This document shows positions 8,197 to 55,574 of a stretch of DNA of 64,000 nt, piece by piece. Source of the stretch: Kofleriaceae bacterium (lineage in GTDB: Bacteria; Myxococcota_A; Polyangia; Haliangiales; Haliangiaceae); NCBI GenBank assembly GCA_024762925.1, contig JANTGM010000022.1:1-64000 (forward strand), in the 5' to 3' direction. The translations under genes were made by a program, and so were the position numbers. Each line of letters begins with the position of its first letter. The stretch's first letter is position 1. Under the pieces are notes generated by a model. That model was not told the origin of the DNA. It worked only from the letters and a program-made list of their open reading frames with translations, and did not search any database.

Positions 8197-9641
8197 TCTA
8201 CGGTTGGCGGCCGGGTTTCCTCAGGCCACGGAGCAAGCGTCGTCTTGGGCAGATGTCTGCGCAAGTCTTCGGGCTCAACGGCTTCGCATGGCACCGTCGA
8301 GAGCCGTGCAAGCAACGCATCCTCGTCCAGCAACGCTACAAGTCGTGCAGCCACCTCGTGACGGTGCCAGGGGCGGCCTCGTGAGCCGCAAACGAGCAGT
8401 TTCGCCAAGACCTTGGAGGCTTCGGGTATGCGCTTGGCCTCTTCGAGCCGATGTGCAAGCTCGGACTGCAGACGCCCCTCACCTGGCCTAAGCGCAAGAG
8501 CCTCTTTTGCAAGCGTCACCGCCATCGCGTGGTCACCTGCGTAGCGACTCGCCAGCGAAGCCAGATGCAGAGATTCAGAAGTATTCTTATCTCGTGCACG
8601 ACCCCGAATCTCTGCCGCTCGCTCAAGAGCGCTCGTTCCACCGCCCACCGAAGCGAGGAGGCGAATGGGCGTCAGAATTGGACGTTGTGCGCCAGGCGCC
8701 AAAGCCGCCGCTCTGTCCCATGCCTCAATCGCGACTCTCACATCTCCGGCCGCCTCTTCCATTTCTGCCAAAGCAATCCACAGCTCAGCGTTGTGTGGGT
8801 TCAAGGTTGTTGCGCGTCGCAAGAGCTCGGCTGCCTTGCTGGGAGCGATGCCATCGGAACGAGACAAAGCGAGCAACATCTCCGGGCCCGCATCGGGCGA
8901 CGCTGCAAGCTCAGCGACATTGCTCGAAGATGACACCGCGGCGGCCGCAGCATCGTGGCGAATGTGAAGGGATATGCTACCGATTTCGCGATGTACGTCT
9001 GGCACACGCCCAAGAGCTGCCAACGCCCCAATGCGTTCGATCGCGAGTGAGTCCCCTGTGCGTCCATCGGTCAGGGAAAGTGACCGCTCAAGTTCACCGG
9101 CATTTCGCAACAAACGAGCGGCGCGAACGCGAACATCGTAGTCATCATTGATCGAAAGTGAGTCGATCAGAATTTCTCTGCCCTCGCGGTCGCGGCCCAA
9201 GACAAAATTCAACTCGGCACGGCGCCAAAGCACGACGGCAACTCGTGGCGCATTGTCGAGGACAGCGATAGCGCGAGTCGCATCCTCCTCCATCAAAGAG
9301 CGCGCAAGGCTCGTTGCTGCCCCCACAGCCCAGGTTTCTGTCTCCGGCAAATCGCAATAGCTCCGACCGCGATGCAATATCTCTACAACGAGTCCGCGCA
9401 AGTCGGTTCCTGTCCACGAGCCCTCTTGCAAGGCAACCAATCCGCGCTCTAGGTCCTTGCACGACGAAACCTCGGTTGCAGCAATGGCGAGGGAGGCTCG
9501 AAGTGGCGTATCTGCCGCGTGCAGCGCTTCTGCGAGCAGAGAATCGCTTTGACGACGCTCCGCGTCACGCTTGCTACCGCATGCAACAAGCACCAAGCCC
9601 GCAAGCAAATGAATCCAAAGTTGCGCGAAGCTGTCTTGCAC
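8193..9641 (-). CDS. TPR-containing lipoprotein
   Basis: The product has 482 residues. The N-terminus has a signal peptide with lipobox VLVAC around residue 21, so the protein should be membrane-anchored and face the periplasm. The rest is Ala/Leu/Glu-rich helical sequence with TPR-like units, clearest at about residues 270-320 (LNPHNAELWIALAEMEEAAG) and 360-400. TPR lipoproteins usually scaffold envelope protein complexes; the partner here is unknown. The start is GTG 9641, 6 nt after an extended -10, which also removes overlap with the divergent TolB-like gene. Confidence 0.8.
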   Translation of the reverse strand: MQDSFAQLWIHLLAGLVLVACGSKRDAERRQSDSLLAEALHAADTPLRASLAIAATEVSSCKDLERGLVALQEGSWTGTDLRGLVVEILHRGRSYCDLPETETWAVGAATSLARSLMEEDATRAIAVLDNAPRVAVVLWRRAELNFVLGRDREGREILIDSLSINDDYDVRVRAARLLRNAGELERSLSLTDGRTGDSLAIERIGALAALGRVPDVHREIGSISLHIRHDAAAAAVSSSSNVAELAASPDAGPEMLLALSRSDGIAPSKAAELLRRATTLNPHNAELWIALAEMEEAAGDVRVAIEAWDRAAALAPGAQRPILTPIRLLASVGGGTSALERAAEIRGRARDKNTSESLHLASLASRYAGDHAMAVTLAKEALALRPGEGRLQSELAHRLEEAKRIPEASKVLAKLLVCGSRGRPWHRHEVAARLVALLDEDALLARLSTVPCEAVEPEDLRRHLPKTTLAPWPEETRPPTVD

Positions 9642-26567: not shown

Positions 26568-28604
26568 ATGCATTTCAGATTCGCTCTTCTTGTAGCCCTC
26601 ACGACCGCCACTCTCGGTTGCAACCCGCTGAATGGCAAAGACGTCAGTGACATCAACTCCTGCACTGACTGTCACCAGGGAATCGAACCTGCCCATCCAT
26701 TTCTGCCCGAACAAACGTGCACCTCCTGTCATGGTGGCAAGGAAGACGGTTCCAGCATGAAAGAGGCTCATGTGCCGATTCCCGCCGATTGGGCCGAGAT
26801 TCGCGGCACCGCACTGCCTCCAGCCCCAGAGGGTTTCATCAAGGACTTTGCGCCAAACCAGCTCGCAGCGCTCGACCCCGCCTACCTGCAATTCATCAAC
26901 CCATCCGACATTCGCGTCGTGGACAAGACTTGTGGTGTTTGTCATCCAGACAATGTCGCAACGATGCCCAACTCAGTGATGGTGACGAACGCAGGACACT
27001 ACTATCCAACCCTGTTCTTGGCCGGCCTCCAAAATGACACCTTGGCCCAGTACGGCTCCTACCCCGCCTCCGCAGACTCTTGTGATGAAGCCGAAGGTAG
27101 CGTGTGTGAGTTGTCGACCCTTTCCCCTTCAAGCGATGAAGAGATTCGGGCGGCAATCAACTCTGGTGACCCCACTCAACTCGAACAAGTCGCCTACGAA
27201 CATTACCTAGCCAAGAACTGCAACACCTGCCACCAAGCGGGCTACCCGCGGAACAACTCGCCAGGCCTCTACCGGTCAACAGGTTGCGCTTCCTGTCACA
27301 TGCTTTACGCGCAAGACGGCACGTACGGAGGCAATGACCCGATGATTCCGAAGGGGACCCCGGTGTATCCCAAGACCCACCGACTTACGACCGCCATCCC
27401 GTCACAACAGTGTGCAACCTGCCATTTTCAGGGCGGACGCATTGGGCTCACCTTCCGAGGAATCCGCGAGGGGGGCTTTGGCGCAAGCAACACACCTCCC
27501 AACGCCGCGCCAATCAATGAAACGCTCTACGGGCATGCTCCTGGTTACTACCTCAGCGATGAGGACACCACCAATGCCATCGACGAGACTCCGCCAGATG
27601 TGCACTTTGCCGCCGGCATGCACTGCGTGGACTGTCACGTAGGCAGCGATGTTCATGGAACCGACAAGGTGTACTCAAACTCGAAGCAGCAGTTTGATAT
27701 TCGCTGCGAAGATTGCCATGGCACGGTTCGGGATCGAGTGGTTCCAAACGAGAGCGGCGTTTTCGAAACCGCTGGTGGCCGGCCCCTTCCTCAGCTTTCG
27801 AGCCGCGAAGATGGAGCTATCACACTCAAGGGCCGGGTAGACGGAGCAATCCACATCGTTCCCCAGCCCGCAGATATGCTCGCAGAAGGCGGTTCGGCGA
27901 CCGAGTCAATGCATGTGGCCATGGGGGATGACAGACTCGGCTTTTCGCACGCAGACAAGCTCACCTGCGACACGTGTCACACCAGTTGGACGCTCAAGTG
28001 CATTGGCTGCCATGTGAGCTACGATCTCAGACTCAGCCAAATCGACTACCAAACGGGACAGTCGAGTTCGGGGCTCACTCGGGGCGGACGCAGCAATTAC
28101 AGTCTAGACACGGTGCTGTTAGCAACGTCTCTTGGCGGCCGTGTGCAATCCGCAGCACCATCACAGCAAGTACAGATGGCAATCATTGGCTCAGAAAAAT
28201 TCGGAACCGAAGACGGCGAGGTACTTCTTGGTGAGCGCGTCGACGATGGCAATGGTGGCACCAAGGTCCTCGGTAAGTTCCGCACAGGTGATGGCGGACG
28301 TGTCGCCAACAATGGCTTCTTGCCCTTCTTCCAACACACAACGTCGCGAGCTCCACGCAAGTGCTCTGCATGCCATCGAACTGCCGATACTCCAGAGGAA
28401 ACCACACGCGTGAGAGGCGTGTACGGCTTTGGGACCGGTGAGTTCATGCTGCAGGGAGCTGGCGGCGTGACGGTCGACGGCCTGCAGTTTCTCGACTCAG
28501 ACGGAAACCCTACCACTGACTGGGCCTATGAAGGAGCTGGCCCTGTCGCCCCAGAGATTCGACAGCGCGCCATCAACGTTGTTATCGATGAGGACCGCCC
28601 TTAG
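26568..28604 (+). CDS. Eleven-haem c-type cytochrome lipoprotein
   Basis: The product has 678 residues. The N-terminus is a lipoprotein signal peptide (VALTTATLGC). Eleven CxxCH haem c attachment motifs are visible: CTDCH, CTSCH, CGVCH, CNTCH, CASCH, CATCH, CVDCH, CEDCH, CDTCH, CIGCH and CSACH, grouped as two near the N-terminus, seven through the middle and the last about 60 residues before the end. Multihaem lipoproteins of this size move electrons across or outside the envelope. No porin partner or NapC-type quinol dehydrogenase gene is adjacent. It lies between two lipoprotein genes on the same strand and touches the downstream gene with no gap. Confidence 0.93.
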   Translation: MHFRFALLVALTTATLGCNPLNGKDVSDINSCTDCHQGIEPAHPFLPEQTCTSCHGGKEDGSSMKEAHVPIPADWAEIRGTALPPAPEGFIKDFAPNQLAALDPAYLQFINPSDIRVVDKTCGVCHPDNVATMPNSVMVTNAGHYYPTLFLAGLQNDTLAQYGSYPASADSCDEAEGSVCELSTLSPSSDEEIRAAINSGDPTQLEQVAYEHYLAKNCNTCHQAGYPRNNSPGLYRSTGCASCHMLYAQDGTYGGNDPMIPKGTPVYPKTHRLTTAIPSQQCATCHFQGGRIGLTFRGIREGGFGASNTPPNAAPINETLYGHAPGYYLSDEDTTNAIDETPPDVHFAAGMHCVDCHVGSDVHGTDKVYSNSKQQFDIRCEDCHGTVRDRVVPNESGVFETAGGRPLPQLSSREDGAITLKGRVDGAIHIVPQPADMLAEGGSATESMHVAMGDDRLGFSHADKLTCDTCHTSWTLKCIGCHVSYDLRLSQIDYQTGQSSSGLTRGGRSNYSLDTVLLATSLGGRVQSAAPSQQVQMAIIGSEKFGTEDGEVLLGERVDDGNGGTKVLGKFRTGDGGRVANNGFLPFFQHTTSRAPRKCSACHRTADTPEETTRVRGVYGFGTGEFMLQGAGGVTVDGLQFLDSDGNPTTDWAYEGAGPVAPEIRQRAINVVIDEDRP

Positions 28605-36031: not shown

Positions 36032-36742
36032 CTACCCCTTATTCCGAATCAAACGCGCAGGTGACCCCATAGCCGTCATATCAGCAGGAACATCACTAAT
36101 CACGACGGAACCCGCCCCAATGATTGCCCTATCGCCAATCGTAACGCCCTTGAGAATCTGCACATCACGACCAATCCAAACATAGTCCCCGATCGTAATG
36201 TCGCCAACCTCTTCAGCCGAAAGCTCATCGTGGTCCGCACGGCGGTCCCACTCCGTTGGATGCCCATCACTATCAGCAATGGTCGTGCCTCCCGCGATGT
36301 TGCAATACTCACCAATCTGCACCCGCCGATTCACGGTAAACATGCACCCATTTCCAATAAAGGTATGGCTGCCGATGATGAGTTGTGGGTTGTCAAAGAA
36401 CCGACCGCTCTTGATGCTTAGCGAGCCCGAAATTGAAACGTGATCACCAACGTGAATCTTCGTGTCACCAATAATGTAGGGAACCCGCTCAAGATAAAGA
36501 GAGTGGCCTGCGGTCTCACAGCGCGACCGAAAGAGCGGCTCGGCCCACAAGACCCCACGTGCGCGTTCGCTTGCCTCTCGAACCAAGACTTGGCCTGCAT
36601 AGGCCGCTTGTGCGACCTTTCTCACGACAGGTGTATCGGGGACGTTGAAGGTATTCACCCCTTTCGCGACCCGATAGATCATGTCGTAGACCGGGCTCTC
36701 GCGGCGACGGATTTTCAAGGCGATTGTATCTAGAAATGCCAC
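36032..36742 (-). CDS. Hexapeptide-repeat (LbH) acyltransferase
   Basis: The product has 236 residues. The second half is built of left-handed beta-helix hexapeptides ([LIV]-G-x4 units such as IGDTKIHVGDHVSI, IGSHTFIGNG, IGDYVWIGRDVQILKGVTIGDRAIIGAGSVV) with an acetyltransferase-type active-site loop GGTTIADSDGHPTE that contains the catalytic His. The N-terminal 80 residues are basic and helical. It lies 10 bp after the carrier-protein gene, so it probably moves the carrier-bound acyl or aminoacyl group to a sugar or amine acceptor rather than using acetyl-CoA, though acetyl-CoA cannot be excluded. Confidence 0.85.
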   Translation of the reverse strand: MAFLDTIALKIRRRESPVYDMIYRVAKGVNTFNVPDTPVVRKVAQAAYAGQVLVREASERARGVLWAEPLFRSRCETAGHSLYLERVPYIIGDTKIHVGDHVSISGSLSIKSGRFFDNPQLIIGSHTFIGNGCMFTVNRRVQIGEYCNIAGGTTIADSDGHPTEWDRRADHDELSAEEVGDITIGDYVWIGRDVQILKGVTIGDRAIIGAGSVVISDVPADMTAMGSPARLIRNKG

Positions 36743-36752
36743 AGAGAGCCCC

Positions 36753-36989
36753 TTATGCCACGAGCTTCGTTAGGAGCGCGACCAAATCATTGAGGTGTTC
36801 GCACTCGTTGTACTCAAGATCCGGTAGCGCAACTTCAAACTGATCCTCAATTTCAAAGAGAAGCTCTAGCGCCTTCGTCGATTCAATACCGAGATCCTTG
36901 AAGACATGTGCTGTCGGATCAAAATCGGCTGGAATGTCGTTGCCAAGCGCAACAATGATGGCCCGTAGGCGCTCTTCAATTGAATTCAT
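36753..36989 (-). CDS. Acyl/peptidyl carrier protein
   Basis: The product is 78 residues long, acidic and helical. The phosphopantetheine attachment site is Ser37 in DLGIESTKALELLFEIED; Glu replaces the usual Asp in the DSL-type motif. It lies between the adenylation gene (6 bp away) and the acyltransferase, which fits a discrete carrier loaded by the upstream enzyme. Confidence 0.92.
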   Translation of the reverse strand: MNSIEERLRAIIVALGNDIPADFDPTAHVFKDLGIESTKALELLFEIEDQFEVALPDLEYNECEHLNDLVALLTKLVA

Positions 36990-36995
36990 AGTGTC

Positions 36996-38582
36996 TTACC
37001 TGCTGAGCTCTTGAACCAAGGCCTTCTTGTTGATCTTACCACTGCTGGTCTGTGGCAGAGCATCGCGAAACTCCACGACGTCGGGAACCATGTAAGCAGG
37101 CAGGCGCTCCTTGCAGGCCGCTTTGATTTCCTTCTCGCCAATTTCTGATTCGGACTTGCGAACCACAACCGCGACGAGCTTGTTCTCGATGAGCTCATCG
37201 GGGATGGCGATGACGGCAAACGACTCCAAATCTTCAACTAGCATCGATAGCGCCAAGTCGATTTCGTTGAGCTCGATGCGGTAGCCGCGACTCTTGACCA
37301 TATCGTCATTGCGCCCAAGAAAGTGAAAAACTCCCGATTCGTCTTGGCGAGCAACATCACCCGTGTAATACACCGTCTCATTTAGATGTGGCTGCAGCGG
37401 GAAGTTCTTGAAGGCCGACGTTGTTTTTTCCTCGTTCCCAAAGTAGCCCAGTGCGATGTGAGATCCTCGCAGAATGAGTTCGCCCTCTTCTCCACGTGGT
37501 GCCTCCTTGCCGTCGGCAGTAACGACATAGGCCTCGGTGTTCTCAAACGGAATGCCGATCGGTAGAGGCTTGTCAACTTCGATAGAATCCGCGTTATCAA
37601 TGCGGTGGTACAGACAATAGATTGTTGCCTCGGTTGGTCCGTAGAGGTTGTAGAGGGTGGCATTGGGCAAGTGCTCGTGCAGCGACTTCATGAAAACCGG
37701 CGGGCACACAGCTGCGCCAGAAATAATCGTGCGCAGCGAGCTCAAGTCATAGCGCCCAAAGACGCGCGGGTTGTTGACCATTGTGCCGATGACGGTGGGC
37801 ACGGTTGCCATGAATGTTGCCTTGTGGCGTTGAGCTGCGTCGAGCACCGTGGTGATACGGGTTTGATTTTCGATGAGAATGATCTGTGCGCCACTCGCAG
37901 CCATTCCAAAGATTTCCATCCCCGAGATGTCGAACGTAAACGGCGCCACGTTGACCATAATGTCGTCTGGCCCCAACCCCAGCTCTGCCAGGCACCATTC
38001 CACGTAGGTAAGAATATTTCTATTCGACAGCATGACGCCCTTTGGCTTTCCGGTGGAACCAGAGGTGTACATAATATAGGCGAGGTCGGTATCCACGGGG
38101 CGATGCGCCGGGCTTGGATTATCAGAATACCTCTCAACACTGGAAAACCGATGGATCGCCACATTGTCATTTGCGTATTCGCCTTCATCGCTCCAAGCCA
38201 CGACATTCTTCAGGCAAGCCGGTTTTTCCTCTGCGGCGAGAATTCGCTCTATGTTGGCGGGATCAGCGAAGACGGTTCGAATCTGGCAGTCCTCAACAAT
38301 CTGAAAGGTGCGCTCAATCGGGAAGGTCTTGTCGATTGGCACATAGCAGGCCCCAGCCCGCAGCGTGCCAAACTGGGTGCACACAAACGCCTCGCTCTTT
38401 GGTCCCACCAGGCCAATGCGCTCCCCCTTCATGGTGCCGAGTTCAATGAGAAAACTCGCGATCTTCTTGTGGAGCGTGTCGGCCTGGGCAAACGTCATCT
38501 CGCGGTCGTCGACACGGATTGCAATGCGCTCTCCCTGCTCTTGGGCGCGCTGACTCAGCTGGTCAAAGATTAGATTGTGCAT
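36996..38582 (-). CDS. AMP-forming amino acid adenylation enzyme (stand-alone, DltA-like)
   Basis: The product has 528 residues from ATG 38582. ANL-superfamily core motifs are present: A3 YIMYTSGSTGKPKGVMLSN, A4 FTFDISGMEIF with the Asp that usually grips an amino group, A5 NLYGPTEATIYC, A7 YYTGDVAR, A8 GRNDDMVKSRGYRIELNEID and the C-terminal lysine motif SGKINKK. It has no fused condensation or carrier domain; the discrete carrier protein gene follows at once. This looks like loading of one amino acid (or acid) onto a carrier. The substrate cannot be read reliably by eye. Confidence 0.9.
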   Translation of the reverse strand: MHNLIFDQLSQRAQEQGERIAIRVDDREMTFAQADTLHKKIASFLIELGTMKGERIGLVGPKSEAFVCTQFGTLRAGACYVPIDKTFPIERTFQIVEDCQIRTVFADPANIERILAAEEKPACLKNVVAWSDEGEYANDNVAIHRFSSVERYSDNPSPAHRPVDTDLAYIMYTSGSTGKPKGVMLSNRNILTYVEWCLAELGLGPDDIMVNVAPFTFDISGMEIFGMAASGAQIILIENQTRITTVLDAAQRHKATFMATVPTVIGTMVNNPRVFGRYDLSSLRTIISGAAVCPPVFMKSLHEHLPNATLYNLYGPTEATIYCLYHRIDNADSIEVDKPLPIGIPFENTEAYVVTADGKEAPRGEEGELILRGSHIALGYFGNEEKTTSAFKNFPLQPHLNETVYYTGDVARQDESGVFHFLGRNDDMVKSRGYRIELNEIDLALSMLVEDLESFAVIAIPDELIENKLVAVVVRKSESEIGEKEIKAACKERLPAYMVPDVVEFRDALPQTSSGKINKKALVQELSR

Positions 38583-38736
38583 GGCTCGGCCGAGAGCATA
38601 ACAAAGGGCTCCACAGGCCCAATGACTTGGCTCAGTGAAGATTCGTGTATGCGATGCTACATTGGAGCCAAGGCAACCCAAGCTGCCTTCATAGAGTCAT
38701 AATCGCGAGCCAGGTTGCGCTCAGGAACACAGCTCG
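38583..38736. promoter_or_regulatory. Divergent promoter region
   Basis: These 154 bp separate the adenylation operon (minus) from the proline-rich protein (plus). On the plus strand CATAAT lies at about 38694-38699, and AGGAA (38723-38727) precedes TTG 38737 by 9 nt. On the minus strand TGT-TATGCT lies 12 nt before ATG 38582. Confidence 0.35.
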
Positions 38737-43629: not shown

Positions 43630-44901
43630 ATGTCCATTCTGCAATACCTTGCGAACTACGCCGAACCCGAGTCTGCTTGCGCCCCCCCGACCGACCGGCA
43701 ATACACCGATGTGGTAGTCGTTCCTGCGTTCGACGAAACGCCCTCATTTCTCGATGGCTTGCTTCCCGTAGGCTCCCCCACAACGCTGTGGATCGTGGTT
43801 GCCAATTGCAGCGTGGATCGCACAGACGGGGAGAAACAGCGCACGCGATACCTTGCCAAAGCCTTGGCTCAGGGGGGTGAGGCGCTCTCCGATGGAATGG
43901 CTCTGAGTCACTCGACCCATGGCGACATACTCGTCATCGACCGCTGCACAGAGGGACGAGAGTTGCCCTCCAGGCAGGGCGTCGGGCTGGCGCGCAAGAT
44001 TGGCTGCGATGTGGCTCTTGCTTGGCAGCGACAGGACGTCATTGTCACCTCTTGGTTGCACTGTACTGACGCCGATGTGACCCTGCCCCCTGGGTACTTC
44101 AAGGCAGCTCACGAGTTCGACAAAGAGACTGATGTGGTAGCTCTTTGCTACCCGTTCTGGCACCAAACTGAGTCCGCATCACAGGCTGGGCGCGCCCTGG
44201 AACTCTACGAAATGTCCCTACGCTACTACGTCTTGGGATTGCGCTGGGCGGGTTCCCAATACGCCTTCCACAGCATTGGCAGCACCATGGCTGTGCGATT
44301 TCGCGGCTACCTGCAGGTTCGAGGCATGCCCAAGCGTGAAGCAGGCGAAGACTTTTATCTGCTTGGCAAGATCGCAAAACTCGGAGTCGTCCGCACCCCT
44401 GAGTGTGAACCTCTGCACATCACACAGCGCGATTCTCAGCGAACGCCGTTTGGTACCGGCCCCGCCACAAGTGCAATCCAAGCGGATATGCGCGATGGCA
44501 AGGAGTTCACCGTCTACAACCCTAGGAGTTTTGCGTTGGTCCGTGAGTGGCTCGAGGTACTCGATGAGTACGCCAAGACGTGCGACTTGACGCTACTCGA
44601 CCGATTGAGTCACGAGACACTTAAGCAGTCGCTCCCGCTCGACACAGAAAAACACTTACGAGCGACAGCCCAGCAGTGCAAGACGCAACGGGCACGGGCA
44701 CAACGGCTGCATTCCTGGTTTGACGCGTTTCGAACCCTAAAACTCATACACGCTCTACGTGATCATGGGCTTGCGGACGTACCCTGGCCTGACGCTGTCG
44801 ACTCTGCTCCATTCATCCCTGAACCGCAAGAGGGTGAGAAACTTCGGGAGTGCCTCGCTCGAACAGAGTCGCACCAGGCGTTGCACAGCCGAAGACTGTA
44901 A
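43630..44901 (+). CDS. Family 2-like glycosyltransferase
   Basis: The product has 423 residues. The N-terminal domain has a GT-A start (DVVVVPAFDE), a segment with TRYLAKALAQGGE, and a DxD-type motif HCTDADVTLPPGYF (about 139-152) that binds metal and nucleotide sugar. A second half (about 230-423) with EAGEDFYLLGKI and C-terminal helices completes it. The acceptor and sugar are unknown. It starts 20 bp after the lipoprotein gene on the same strand. Confidence 0.8.
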   Translation: MSILQYLANYAEPESACAPPTDRQYTDVVVVPAFDETPSFLDGLLPVGSPTTLWIVVANCSVDRTDGEKQRTRYLAKALAQGGEALSDGMALSHSTHGDILVIDRCTEGRELPSRQGVGLARKIGCDVALAWQRQDVIVTSWLHCTDADVTLPPGYFKAAHEFDKETDVVALCYPFWHQTESASQAGRALELYEMSLRYYVLGLRWAGSQYAFHSIGSTMAVRFRGYLQVRGMPKREAGEDFYLLGKIAKLGVVRTPECEPLHITQRDSQRTPFGTGPATSAIQADMRDGKEFTVYNPRSFALVREWLEVLDEYAKTCDLTLLDRLSHETLKQSLPLDTEKHLRATAQQCKTQRARAQRLHSWFDAFRTLKLIHALRDHGLADVPWPDAVDSAPFIPEPQEGEKLRECLARTESHQALHSRRL

Positions 44902-52656: not shown

Positions 52657-54675
52657 CTAGCTTTCGTCGGGCTTGGTTGCGCGCTTTTCGGCAACCACTA
52701 CAATGTCGCGGGAGTGAGCCCCAAAGAAACGACCTCGGGTCGACATGCTTCCCGAGATTTCCAAGACTCGGAACCCGACCGCATGTAGAAACTTGCCTAG
52801 CTCATGTAGGGAGAATGAGCGCAGTGAGATTTCGTGCTCAAGTTGCCGACCATCATCGAAGACAACCGAACGATTCGACACAATCCGAGATGAGAAGTAA
52901 TTGAACTCCACTTCCTCCAAGACCACGCATCCATCGCCTTCCCACCACACTCGCGATGGCAAGTCGGCGACTAAGTAGTCTCGATTGAGTACCTCGACAA
53001 CGAATCGCGCTCCAGGCTTGAGCGCCTTCGCGATGTTTTGCGCTGTGCGCTTGTTCGTCTCGTCGTCGAAGTAGCCGAATGAAGAGAACAAGCAGTAAGC
53101 ACCATCGAATTGGGATTCGAAGGTCATCTCACGCATATCGCCGTGTACGAAATTGATGGTCAAACCGCGACGCTGGGCTTCGTCGGCACCTCGAAGCAGC
53201 AACGGTAGGGAGCTATCGAGACCAACAAGATGGTAGCCACGTGCCGCCAACTCCATCGCATGACGACCATAGCCACAACCCACATCGAGAAGTTGAGCGC
53301 CTGGTTCGACTCCCAAAGATTCCATCACGAAGTTCGCTTCGAATTTCGTAGCCTGGGGTGTGAGGAATGGAAGAGTTCGTAGGTAATCCTCGTCGAAGAT
53401 TTCTTCAAACCAGGGCTTGCGACCTCGTCGTTTTCCATCCTCTTCCGTTGAGACTTCCACCTTTGGCCTTGGAGCAGGCGTGGCAGGTTTAGGAGCGGGC
53501 TTGGGCGCAGGTGGGGCCTTGCTTGGACCTTTCGCTTTGGCTGGAGGCGGAGGAGGCTCAGCGGTATCAGCGCGCTTCTTGGCAGCTCGCGGTGGCGGGG
53601 GAGCTTCTGAAGCCTCGGGTGTAGGAGTCTGCGTTGTGGGTGCCTCAATCGGCTTCGCGGGCTTCGCCTTGACCTCAACTGGCGGCGACACCTCTTCTAG
53701 TTCACTGTCGTCGAGCAGCTCACCAGACTCCGCACGTGATGCCTGAGCTGCTGGGGCACCACCCTCAGGTTTGGCGGGTGCGGAAATGCGGCTTCCATCT
53801 TCCAAGCGAACTTCTTCCAAGTCCGAATCACTGAGCGCCATCGTTAGCGCCCGATTGAACCGAGGTTTCTTGGGTTTGCCCTGCCCTGCAGCAGCAAGGT
53901 CACCAAGCGCCGGAATGGCCTTCTTTGGCGCCGACTCTTCGTTCACCACCGTCTTGGCTCGATCACGGGTGTCCGTTGCGGCTTTCTCATCTGCATCGGA
54001 GGCAACGGGGATCGATGCTGTCAGAGTTGTCTCATCACTGTCATCAAACGGAATGTCGACACTTTCGCCCGACTCCTCATCTTCGGTGACGTTCGCCGTG
54101 TTGGCGTCAGCACCAAAGGTAACGCTCACCGGCGCATCCTCGTCTTGAATCGCTCTAATCTCACCTGTCACCAGGGATGAGCCTTCGAGTTCCTCGATCA
54201 CTTCCTCGTCTTCGGATGTGTCGTCTTCGGATGCGTCTTGCTCGGATGCGTCTTGCTCGGATGTGTCTTGCTCGGATGTGTCTTGCTCGGACTGCGTCCT
54301 GGGCTCGCCGTCCTCTTCTATGTGTGCAGGCCGAGTATGCATTGGCAGCGTCGACCGTAAATCCACAGGAGCAGCCATTAGGTCGTTGGAAGCCTTAACT
54401 GAGGCTTCGGCCAAGTCTGCGGCCGTTCTGTCGTTTACAACCGTTGGCAACTCGTCCATGTCCTCTTCGGTGCTCAAGTCGGTTCCAACCATGGTCGTGT
54501 CATCTGCTGGCTCCATCACGCCAAAGGACTCGGAAACCGATGCCGCCAGCCCCACAGCTTCTGGAACGGGAACAGGGACTTCGGCACTTGCTCGACGAGG
54601 CACCTCATCTGAAGGCACCCGCAGGCCACCACGACGCTTGCGACGAGAGCCATCGCTCTCCGGTCCCTTGCTCAT
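52657..54675 (-). CDS. SAM-dependent methyltransferase with a 430-residue disordered acidic N-terminus
   Basis: The product has 672 residues. Residues 1-430 are low-complexity: Glu/Asp/Ser/Thr-rich with tandem five-residue SEQD[TA] repeats (about 127-150), then Pro/Ala/Lys-rich sequence. The C-terminal class I methyltransferase (about 440-665) has motif I LLDVGCGYGRHAMELAARG, the acidic VGLDSS and motif NFVHGDMREM. The substrate is unknown, perhaps a small molecule or lipid given the downstream psd. Its ATG has AGAAGGGG upstream. The unusual fusion of an acidic tail and enzyme recalls scaffolding or surface-interaction roles. Confidence 0.85.
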   Translation of the reverse strand: MSKGPESDGSRRKRRGGLRVPSDEVPRRASAEVPVPVPEAVGLAASVSESFGVMEPADDTTMVGTDLSTEEDMDELPTVVNDRTAADLAEASVKASNDLMAAPVDLRSTLPMHTRPAHIEEDGEPRTQSEQDTSEQDTSEQDASEQDASEDDTSEDEEVIEELEGSSLVTGEIRAIQDEDAPVSVTFGADANTANVTEDEESGESVDIPFDDSDETTLTASIPVASDADEKAATDTRDRAKTVVNEESAPKKAIPALGDLAAAGQGKPKKPRFNRALTMALSDSDLEEVRLEDGSRISAPAKPEGGAPAAQASRAESGELLDDSELEEVSPPVEVKAKPAKPIEAPTTQTPTPEASEAPPPPRAAKKRADTAEPPPPPAKAKGPSKAPPAPKPAPKPATPAPRPKVEVSTEEDGKRRGRKPWFEEIFDEDYLRTLPFLTPQATKFEANFVMESLGVEPGAQLLDVGCGYGRHAMELAARGYHLVGLDSSLPLLLRGADEAQRRGLTINFVHGDMREMTFESQFDGAYCLFSSFGYFDDETNKRTAQNIAKALKPGARFVVEVLNRDYLVADLPSRVWWEGDGCVVLEEVEFNYFSSRIVSNRSVVFDDGRQLEHEISLRSFSLHELGKFLHAVGFRVLEISGSMSTRGRFFGAHSRDIVVVAEKRATKPDES
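54210..54295. repeat. 15-bp tandem repeats encoding SEQDT/SEQDA
   Basis: About five imperfect 15-bp units (form TCTTGCTCGGATGTG or ...GCG on the plus strand) encode SEQDT/SEQDA on the minus strand inside the methyltransferase gene. In-frame 15-bp steps mean copy number can change without a frameshift. Confidence 0.85.
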
Positions 54676-55574
54676 GCTATCCCCTTCTCGGGTGATGAGG
54701 TGGTTCCAATTGCGTCACCGAATTGCAGAACTTGGCCAACCGATGCCCGAATGCTGAGAGCTCCACTTGGTGTGCAAAGAATTACGGTCGAGCCTAGCTC
54801 AAACGCACCGAGTTCCTGGCCTCGATGAAGAAGCAATGGCTCGGCAAGCTCAACTCGGTGAGGCCCTGAGGAGTTCTTCGCAAGGGGAAACACCGACGCA
54901 CGCATGTGGCGGCTTTCAAACTCGGGTGAAGTAAGTCGCATATTGCCAACACCCGCGGCTCCGACCATGACGAGGGCGAAAACACCAATTTCGCTTTCGA
55001 GTTCGAGAACAATGCGCTCATTCACCGAGAAGATATTGCCAATGTGCTTTCGATAAAATGGGGCGACTGGATAGAGGCTGCCCGGAATATAGGTATACCG
55101 AATGAGCTGACAATCGGTTGGAGCGTGCACGCGGTGGTAGTCACGAGGCGAGAGATAGAGCGTAAGAAAATCACCGGACTGTAGCTTGTCAGCAAGAGCA
55201 GTATCACCAAGTAGCGATGTCAGCGAAAAGCTATGTCCCTTGGCGCTGAGCGCACGTTCATCAAGCGGTCCAGCTTCTGCGACGTTACAATCGCAGGGTG
55301 CGGCCCAATCGCCAGCAGCTTCGGGAAGACTTCTTGCACCGTTTTTTAGTCCTCGAGAAAAGAAGGCACCAAAGCTTTTGTAGTCGTCAAGAGAGTGCTC
55401 GACCTCACCAAGTTCGGCGCCAACAGCATTGGCAAAGGCACCATAGAGAGGAGCGCGAAGCACTTTGGGAAGCGTTCGCCTAGCCCCCCAACCAACCACT
55501 CCAGAGAATGCCGACTTGGGAGCCAAGCGAATTGCATCGACGGCCACACGCTCTCGTATCGCGCTTAGTTTCAA
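54672..55574 (-). CDS. psd: Phosphatidylserine decarboxylase proenzyme
   Basis: The product has 300 residues from TTG 55574 (no ATG is available further upstream). The protein self-cleaves at LGST (260-263) and Ser262 becomes the pyruvoyl cofactor that converts phosphatidylserine to phosphatidylethanolamine. YHRVHAP contributes the active-site His, and Asp95 fits the self-cleavage triad. Full length for the bacterial class I enzyme. The stop overlaps the methyltransferase start by 4 bp. Association with the inner membrane is expected. Confidence 0.95.
   Translation of the reverse strand: MKLSAIRERVAVDAIRLAPKSAFSGVVGWGARRTLPKVLRAPLYGAFANAVGAELGEVEHSLDDYKSFGAFFSRGLKNGARSLPEAAGDWAAPCDCNVAEAGPLDERALSAKGHSFSLTSLLGDTALADKLQSGDFLTLYLSPRDYHRVHAPTDCQLIRYTYIPGSLYPVAPFYRKHIGNIFSVNERIVLELESEIGVFALVMVGAAGVGNMRLTSPEFESRHMRASVFPLAKNSSGPHRVELAEPLLLHRGQELGAFELGSTVILCTPSGALSIRASVGQVLQFGDAIGTTSSPEKGIA

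Follow-up and report, generated by a model that had tools for sequence, protein, structure and literature searches.

A three-gene operon of a Kofleriaceae bacterium that probably transfers an amino acid from a carrier protein by a left-handed beta-helix acyltransferase

An operon comprising a stand-alone adenylation enzyme of the NRPS type, a free-standing carrier protein and an acyltransferase of the left-handed beta-helix (LbH, hexapeptide) fold probably forms an aminoacyl-carrier protein, which would be used by the LbH enzyme as acyl donor toward a glycan or lipid. The operon is located in the window, as the whole stretch of 64,000 nucleotides analysed here is called. In the proposed mechanism, the adenylation enzyme would activate one alpha-amino acid with ATP and attach it to the carrier's phosphopantetheine through a thioester bond, as its family, its motifs and its exchange for other enzymes in relatives suggest; the carrier would be primed by an AcpS-type PPTase, the gene for which is present in the genome of the window. 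The LbH enzyme would then take the aminoacyl group over from the carrier and attach it to a hydroxyl or amine, which may belong to a glycan of the cell surface, to a glycan precursor or to a lipid; recurrent linkage and operon structure, a fusion found in one relative (G403), an invariant histidine (His161) and the neighbourhoods of relatives all point to this role. Such a system would resemble AlmEFG and Dlt, with the LbH enzyme standing where those systems have AlmG, an LPLAT transferase, or DltB, an MBOAT-type one. In relatives, the carrier and the LbH enzyme are kept, and the activating enzyme gives way either to a SerRS-like amino-acid:[carrier-protein] ligase or to an AMP ligase together with a PLP decarboxylase. 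In a wider reading, the chances of which appear evenly balanced, a family of LbH enzymes are tRNA-independent aminoacyl-carrier-protein transferases for surface glycans or lipids, served by interchangeable activating enzymes and giving one or more branches of the amino-acid:[carrier-protein] ligases a physiological outlet.

All three genes are encoded on the minus strand. In the 5' to 3' order, the adenylation enzyme (36996..38582, 528 aa, ATG start) is followed by the carrier protein (36753..36989, 78 aa, ATG start) and the LbH acyltransferase (36032..36742, 236 aa, GTG start), and the intergenic gaps of 6 and 10 bp given in the initial annotation are borne out by these coordinates. The frame of the adenylation enzyme can be extended upstream to a TTG start at 38681, but it is the ATG at 38582 that matches the start of the same-genus homologue. 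The operon consists of these three genes only. According to the Pfam scan or to reading of the sequence, its flanking genes encode a kinase and an EAL protein, beside others of no relation to it; genes resembling aspS and glpD, identified by reading the sequence, are among the neighbours, and no recognised sugar-nucleotide gene or glycan locus was found beside it in the window. Elsewhere in the window, positions 43630-44901 encode a 423-aa protein whose start resembles a family-2 glycosyltransferase and which has no Pfam or NCBIfam match, and positions 26568-28604 encode a protein of 678 aa that gave multihaem matches of the cytochrome c7/c3 type; at 52657-55574, a phosphatidylserine decarboxylase gene overlaps, on the same strand, the gene of a 672-aa protein whose C-terminal part is a methyltransferase domain.

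The enzyme types first assigned to the trio were confirmed, with the Pfam families AMP-binding, PP-binding and Hexapep all matched above their curated cut-offs. In the adenylation enzyme, the AMP-binding match (1.6e-88) is accompanied by AMP-binding_C and by the NCBIfam AA-adenyl-dom model TIGR01733, at 333.3 bits against a cut-off of 317.4. The Asp previously pointed out in the FTFDIS motif is present as residue 218 and corresponds, by motif anchoring, to position 235 of GrsA, Lys516 being the equivalent of Lys517; the two residues concerned with the alpha-amino and carboxylate groups are both present. The pocket code obtained by the same anchoring is DIMAIGLIYK, identical in one of the two other genomes of the genus (G019) and, over the nine positions covered, in the second (G020). 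In G500, a genome of another family, the code read by eye is DITSVGHIYK, and because it differs from that of the genus the activated amino acid may differ between the two lineages. A literature search for a glycine pocket code found nothing. To check the procedure, the codes of the relatives G095 and G380, located beside acyl-CoA dehydrogenase-like genes, were read as DLLYLALV and DLFYLALV, which are close to the proline code. The genome of the window also contains, on contig C46 (L048:8116-12189), an operon of carrier, acyl-CoA dehydrogenase-like protein, adenylation enzyme and 356-aa protein. Related sets are found in both other genomes of the genus, G019 and G020, whereas those of G095 and G380, which bear the proline-like code, are more distant. 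Outside the genus, the adenylation enzymes of the phylum sample reached at most about 36% identity, and G500 surfaced only in the later class sample, via its LbH protein. Among the weaker sequence matches of the adenylation core was PDB 4oxi, presumably AlmE.

The carrier protein matches PF00550 (36.9 bits; PP-binding 4.5e-9) above the curated cut-off. Its Ser37, attributed beforehand to a GIES motif, is indeed found there, within LGIES, and the corresponding codon (36879..36881, minus strand; position derived from the start of the gene, 36989) is the predicted phosphopantetheine attachment site. The genome of the window has four PP-binding matches in 6.8 Mb (E <= 1e-3). On contig C204 of the same genome (L049:2592-6448), an asparagine-synthetase-like gene (N-terminus), a TIGR03098-like AMP ligase and a carrier stand in a row, in a cluster that opens like locus L041.

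The resemblance of the carrier to fatty-acid ACPs fits a different reading, in which the adenylation enzyme takes a hydroxy, aryl or small fatty acid and an acyl rather than an aminoacyl group is transferred, as do the TIGR03098-type AMP ligases located beside related LbH genes. The attachment of tetronate to the perosamine of a Vibrio O-antigen is a proposed precedent for such a transfer; a literature search for an O-antigen system with phosphopantetheine, an AMP-dependent ligase and an acyltransferase found none. Acyl transfer is nevertheless quite improbable in view of the TIGR01733 score above cut-off, the Asp235 and Lys517 equivalents and the substitution, in relatives, of a dedicated amino-acid:[carrier-protein] ligase, and an aminoacyl donor is preferred.

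As for the transferase, its description as a hexapeptide protein instead of a condensation domain agrees with its PF00132 match (54.7 bits; Hexapep 5.8e-15, above the curated cut-off) and with the fact that no condensation domain was reported. The protein has an N-terminal extension of about 85 aa and a catalytic-type histidine, His161, in a GHP motif (codon at 36260..36262, minus strand, as counted from the first position of the gene, 36742); this predicted catalytic base is kept in 33/33 aligned members of the LbH family. Having hexapeptide repeats and such a histidine, the protein belongs to the LbH acyltransferases in general, and, by its scores, falls outside the LbH sugar acetyltransferases (NeuD/PglB/VioB, LacA, WbbJ). 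No NCBIfam equivalog or subfamily model was matched above its cut-off, the best score being that of LacA (70 bits vs 347), with NeuD/VioB at 62 vs 161. Of the comparison suggested at the outset, with DltA and with VioB-like systems, the first half stands, AlmEFG/Dlt being the nearest working analogue, and the second does not, a VioB-type activity (CoA-dependent N-acetylation of a nucleotide sugar) being unsupported by the family scores. An AlphaFold2 model of the LbH protein built from a two-sequence alignment had a pLDDT of 45.6 and was excluded from fold searches. Weak similarity to LpxA/LpxD was also observed. The latter are LbH enzymes which move an acyl group from a carrier protein onto a UDP-amino sugar; their donor is a fatty acyl group, and their acceptor a UDP-sugar, in which they differ from the system proposed here.

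The closest solved structures to the LbH protein are acetyl-CoA O-acetyltransferases, and several family members are located in exopolysaccharide loci without a carrier, among them the relatives from Plesiomonas and a Nitratidesulfovibrio plasmid, whose loci have no listed carrier gene. Both observations would be expected if the adenylation enzyme and the carrier served another enzyme, and the LbH protein were an acetyl-CoA-dependent acetyltransferase acting on the amino acid or on the end product. This is unlikely: the operon is without any other enzyme to consume the aminoacyl-carrier, and the LbH protein is the recurrent partner of the carrier whatever the activating enzyme, and in G403 even forms one polypeptide with both carrier and ligase. 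Direct transfer from the carrier by the LbH enzyme is the interpretation followed below.

The trio had been expected to be conserved, and it is kept in two genomes of the same genus and in G500. Matches to the LbH protein at E <= 1e-20 were found in only 3 of 30 genomes of the family, all of the window's own genus. Both other genomes of the genus preserve the order adenylation enzyme, carrier, LbH, with protein identities of 71-85% (71% and 81% for the carrier), although both contigs break off within the LbH gene or close to it. In G019, the LbH frame (L012:86-802) is unmatched after residue 212, where, close to the end of the contig, it passes into sequence of no relation, a divergence which is probably an assembly artefact. 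A scan of genome contigs yielded only one fragmentary ortholog and a weak match. Copies from the same genus differ at 68-94% of synonymous and 10-21% of non-synonymous sites; since synonymous change far exceeds non-synonymous change, all three proteins are, on the evidence of their sequences, constrained by purifying selection. In G500, found in the class sample of 318 genomes, the order is carrier, LbH, adenylation enzyme, with identities of 54, 55 and 57%, respectively. The trio is not a chance assembly, a conclusion that rests on the constraint and on G500, where the three genes are still grouped although their order differs. Moreover, the contig of G500 contains a Bac_transf sugar transferase, a GT4 glycosyltransferase and a UDP-GlcNAc 2-epimerase, as well as a PLP decarboxylase in two frames and a weak polysaccharide-deacetylase match. 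Thus the suggestion that the trio might stand next to sugar-nucleotide genes holds for G500 (epimerase, glycosyltransferase), but not for the window itself.

LbH relatives were gathered by similarity from samples of the phylum, the class, the order and one large family, and are mostly from Myxococcota; their neighbouring DNA was scanned with small profiles (LbH, carrier, AMP ligase, PLP decarboxylase and amino-acid:[carrier-protein] ligase) built from the same loci. Because the LbH fold is common, orthology by the LbH protein alone was judged insufficient, and trees and control LbH genes of the same genome were used. A carrier was found fused to the LbH gene, or no more than about 3 kb away from it, in 21/33 loci, which, in a set collected by similarity and including near relatives instead of random independent genomes, is read as a clear association and not as a rate. 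The five other LbH loci of the window's genome have no PP-binding match within 1.5 kb. In the remaining 12/33 relatives, that from Plesiomonas among them, there is no carrier within 3 kb, contig ends limiting the view in some (G552, G521), and these carrier-less relatives may be ordinary acetyl-CoA enzymes.

Three arrangements were distinguished. In the first, that of the window, G019, G020 and G500, an adenylation enzyme accompanies the carrier and the LbH gene. In the second, found in nine other myxobacterial genomes (G284, G547, G076, five of genus g265 and G403), the place of the adenylation enzyme is taken by a SerRS-like amino-acid:[carrier-protein] ligase. Thus, G284 has the order carrier, ligase, LbH, LbH, with a 4-bp overlap followed by gaps of 16 and 1 bp; in G547, a glycosyltransferase-like gene precedes carrier, ligase and LbH, and a polysaccharide deacetylase gene follows; in G076, LbH and carrier are adjacent and the ligase is convergent. 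One ORF of the single-contig genome G403 (L138:9112-12597, the start at 9112 being read from the frame) comprises segments of four kinds: LbH, PP-binding, ligase and GNAT. In the third arrangement, the LbH gene is found with a PLP decarboxylase of the TIGR03099 type and a carrier, in several cases with a TIGR03098-type AMP ligase (G372, G438, G405, G441, G428, G071 and G173, with G360 more loosely organised).

The ligase core of G284 aligns to the solved amino-acid:[carrier-protein] ligase Bll0957 (3.6e-32) with the Cys, Glu and Cys motifs kept, and the relatives' ligase combines a SerRS-like core with an adjacent carrier gene, as this class does. The LbH-linked ligases tested against NF005479 scored 131-164 bits; these values being far below the cut-off of 357, they are, by score, a divergent branch of the class. 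Their presence beside a similar carrier and LbH gene supports the earlier proposal that an amino acid is loaded. The ligase is unrelated to the adenylation enzyme but has an aminoacyl-carrier as product, and their exchange is the strongest indication available that the adenylation enzyme of the window makes one too, as we infer.

In a tree of 33 LbH proteins, the adenylation-type group forms one clade (99/96), as does the ligase-type group of G284, G076 and G547 (100/98); one supported fork (96/92) unites these two clades and the decarboxylase-type group, and the ligase-type group of g265 and G403 is placed apart. From this topology, the activating enzyme has probably changed at least twice while the carrier and the LbH protein stayed.

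The nature of the acceptor is a sub-question of the main explanation. In 6/6 operons of g265 and G403 (L139, L141, L143, L146, L148 and L138), a PF03706 (LPG_synthase_TM) gene is located just upstream of the LbH gene, which suggests a lipid link and makes a lipid a possible acceptor in that group. A membrane lipid as the acceptor of the window's system, making the latter a tRNA-independent counterpart of MprF-type lipid aminoacylation, is unlikely: the family is broad, occurring in 11/14 control genomes, none of the five PF03706 genes of the window's genome is at the trio, and in the closer relatives, G500 and G547, the genes around the system encode a sugar transferase, glycosyltransferases, an epimerase and deacetylases. 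For these closest relatives, a glycan is the favoured acceptor.

Among the known systems, AlmEFG, responsible for lipid A glycylation in Vibrio cholerae, comprises an adenylating glycine ligase, a small carrier and an acyltransferase to a surface molecule (PMC3783018, where the names AlmE and AlmF are printed swapped). The window shares with it an adenylation enzyme and a free carrier in one operon; however, AlmG is an LPLAT-domain transferase, whereas that of the window is of the Hexapep/LbH type, with no LPLAT Pfam match. In Dlt, which carries out the D-alanylation of teichoic acids, a DltA-type ligase and the DltC carrier likewise feed an amino acid to a surface polymer, and the DltA models PRK04813 (270.8 bits, below the cut-off of 476) and TIGR01734 (257.6 vs 559.85) both score on the adenylation enzyme below their cut-offs; the operon of the window lacks DltB (MBOAT) and DltD, its transferase being a soluble-type LbH protein. 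Because there is no LPLAT- or MBOAT-type transferase and the DltA scores are below cut-off, the system of the window is, as its sequence stands, a member of neither. The amino-acid:[carrier-protein] ligases (Bll0957 family, NF005479) also charge a free carrier with an amino acid, and replace the adenylation enzyme beside LbH genes in relatives, although they have a class II aaRS fold unrelated to that enzyme; the canonical members adjoin acyl-CoA dehydrogenase genes instead. Finally, in the butirosin (BtrI/J/K/H) and clorobiocin (CloN4/CloN5) pathways, an amino acid on a free carrier, with optional PLP-dependent decarboxylation, is passed by acyl transfer to a sugar, which recalls the operons of LbH, PLP decarboxylase, carrier and ligase in relatives; the products there are secondary metabolites, and the acyltransferases have other folds. 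None of the literature covered by a non-exhaustive search describes an LbH aminoacyl-carrier transferase.

Carrier-bound amino acids transferred to surface molecules by Dlt and Alm alter charge and susceptibility to antimicrobial peptides. If the proposal is true, the LbH enzyme would be a third transferase fold for aminoacylation from carrier to surface, and the class would be widened. The biological role of amino-acid attachment by amino-acid:[carrier-protein] ligases was described as unknown in a 2022 review (PMC9437257). The LbH transferases would provide these ligases with a physiological outlet, and the LbH-linked operons, together with the four-part fusion of G403, would offer a concrete enzyme and an assay with which the question of their role could be addressed.
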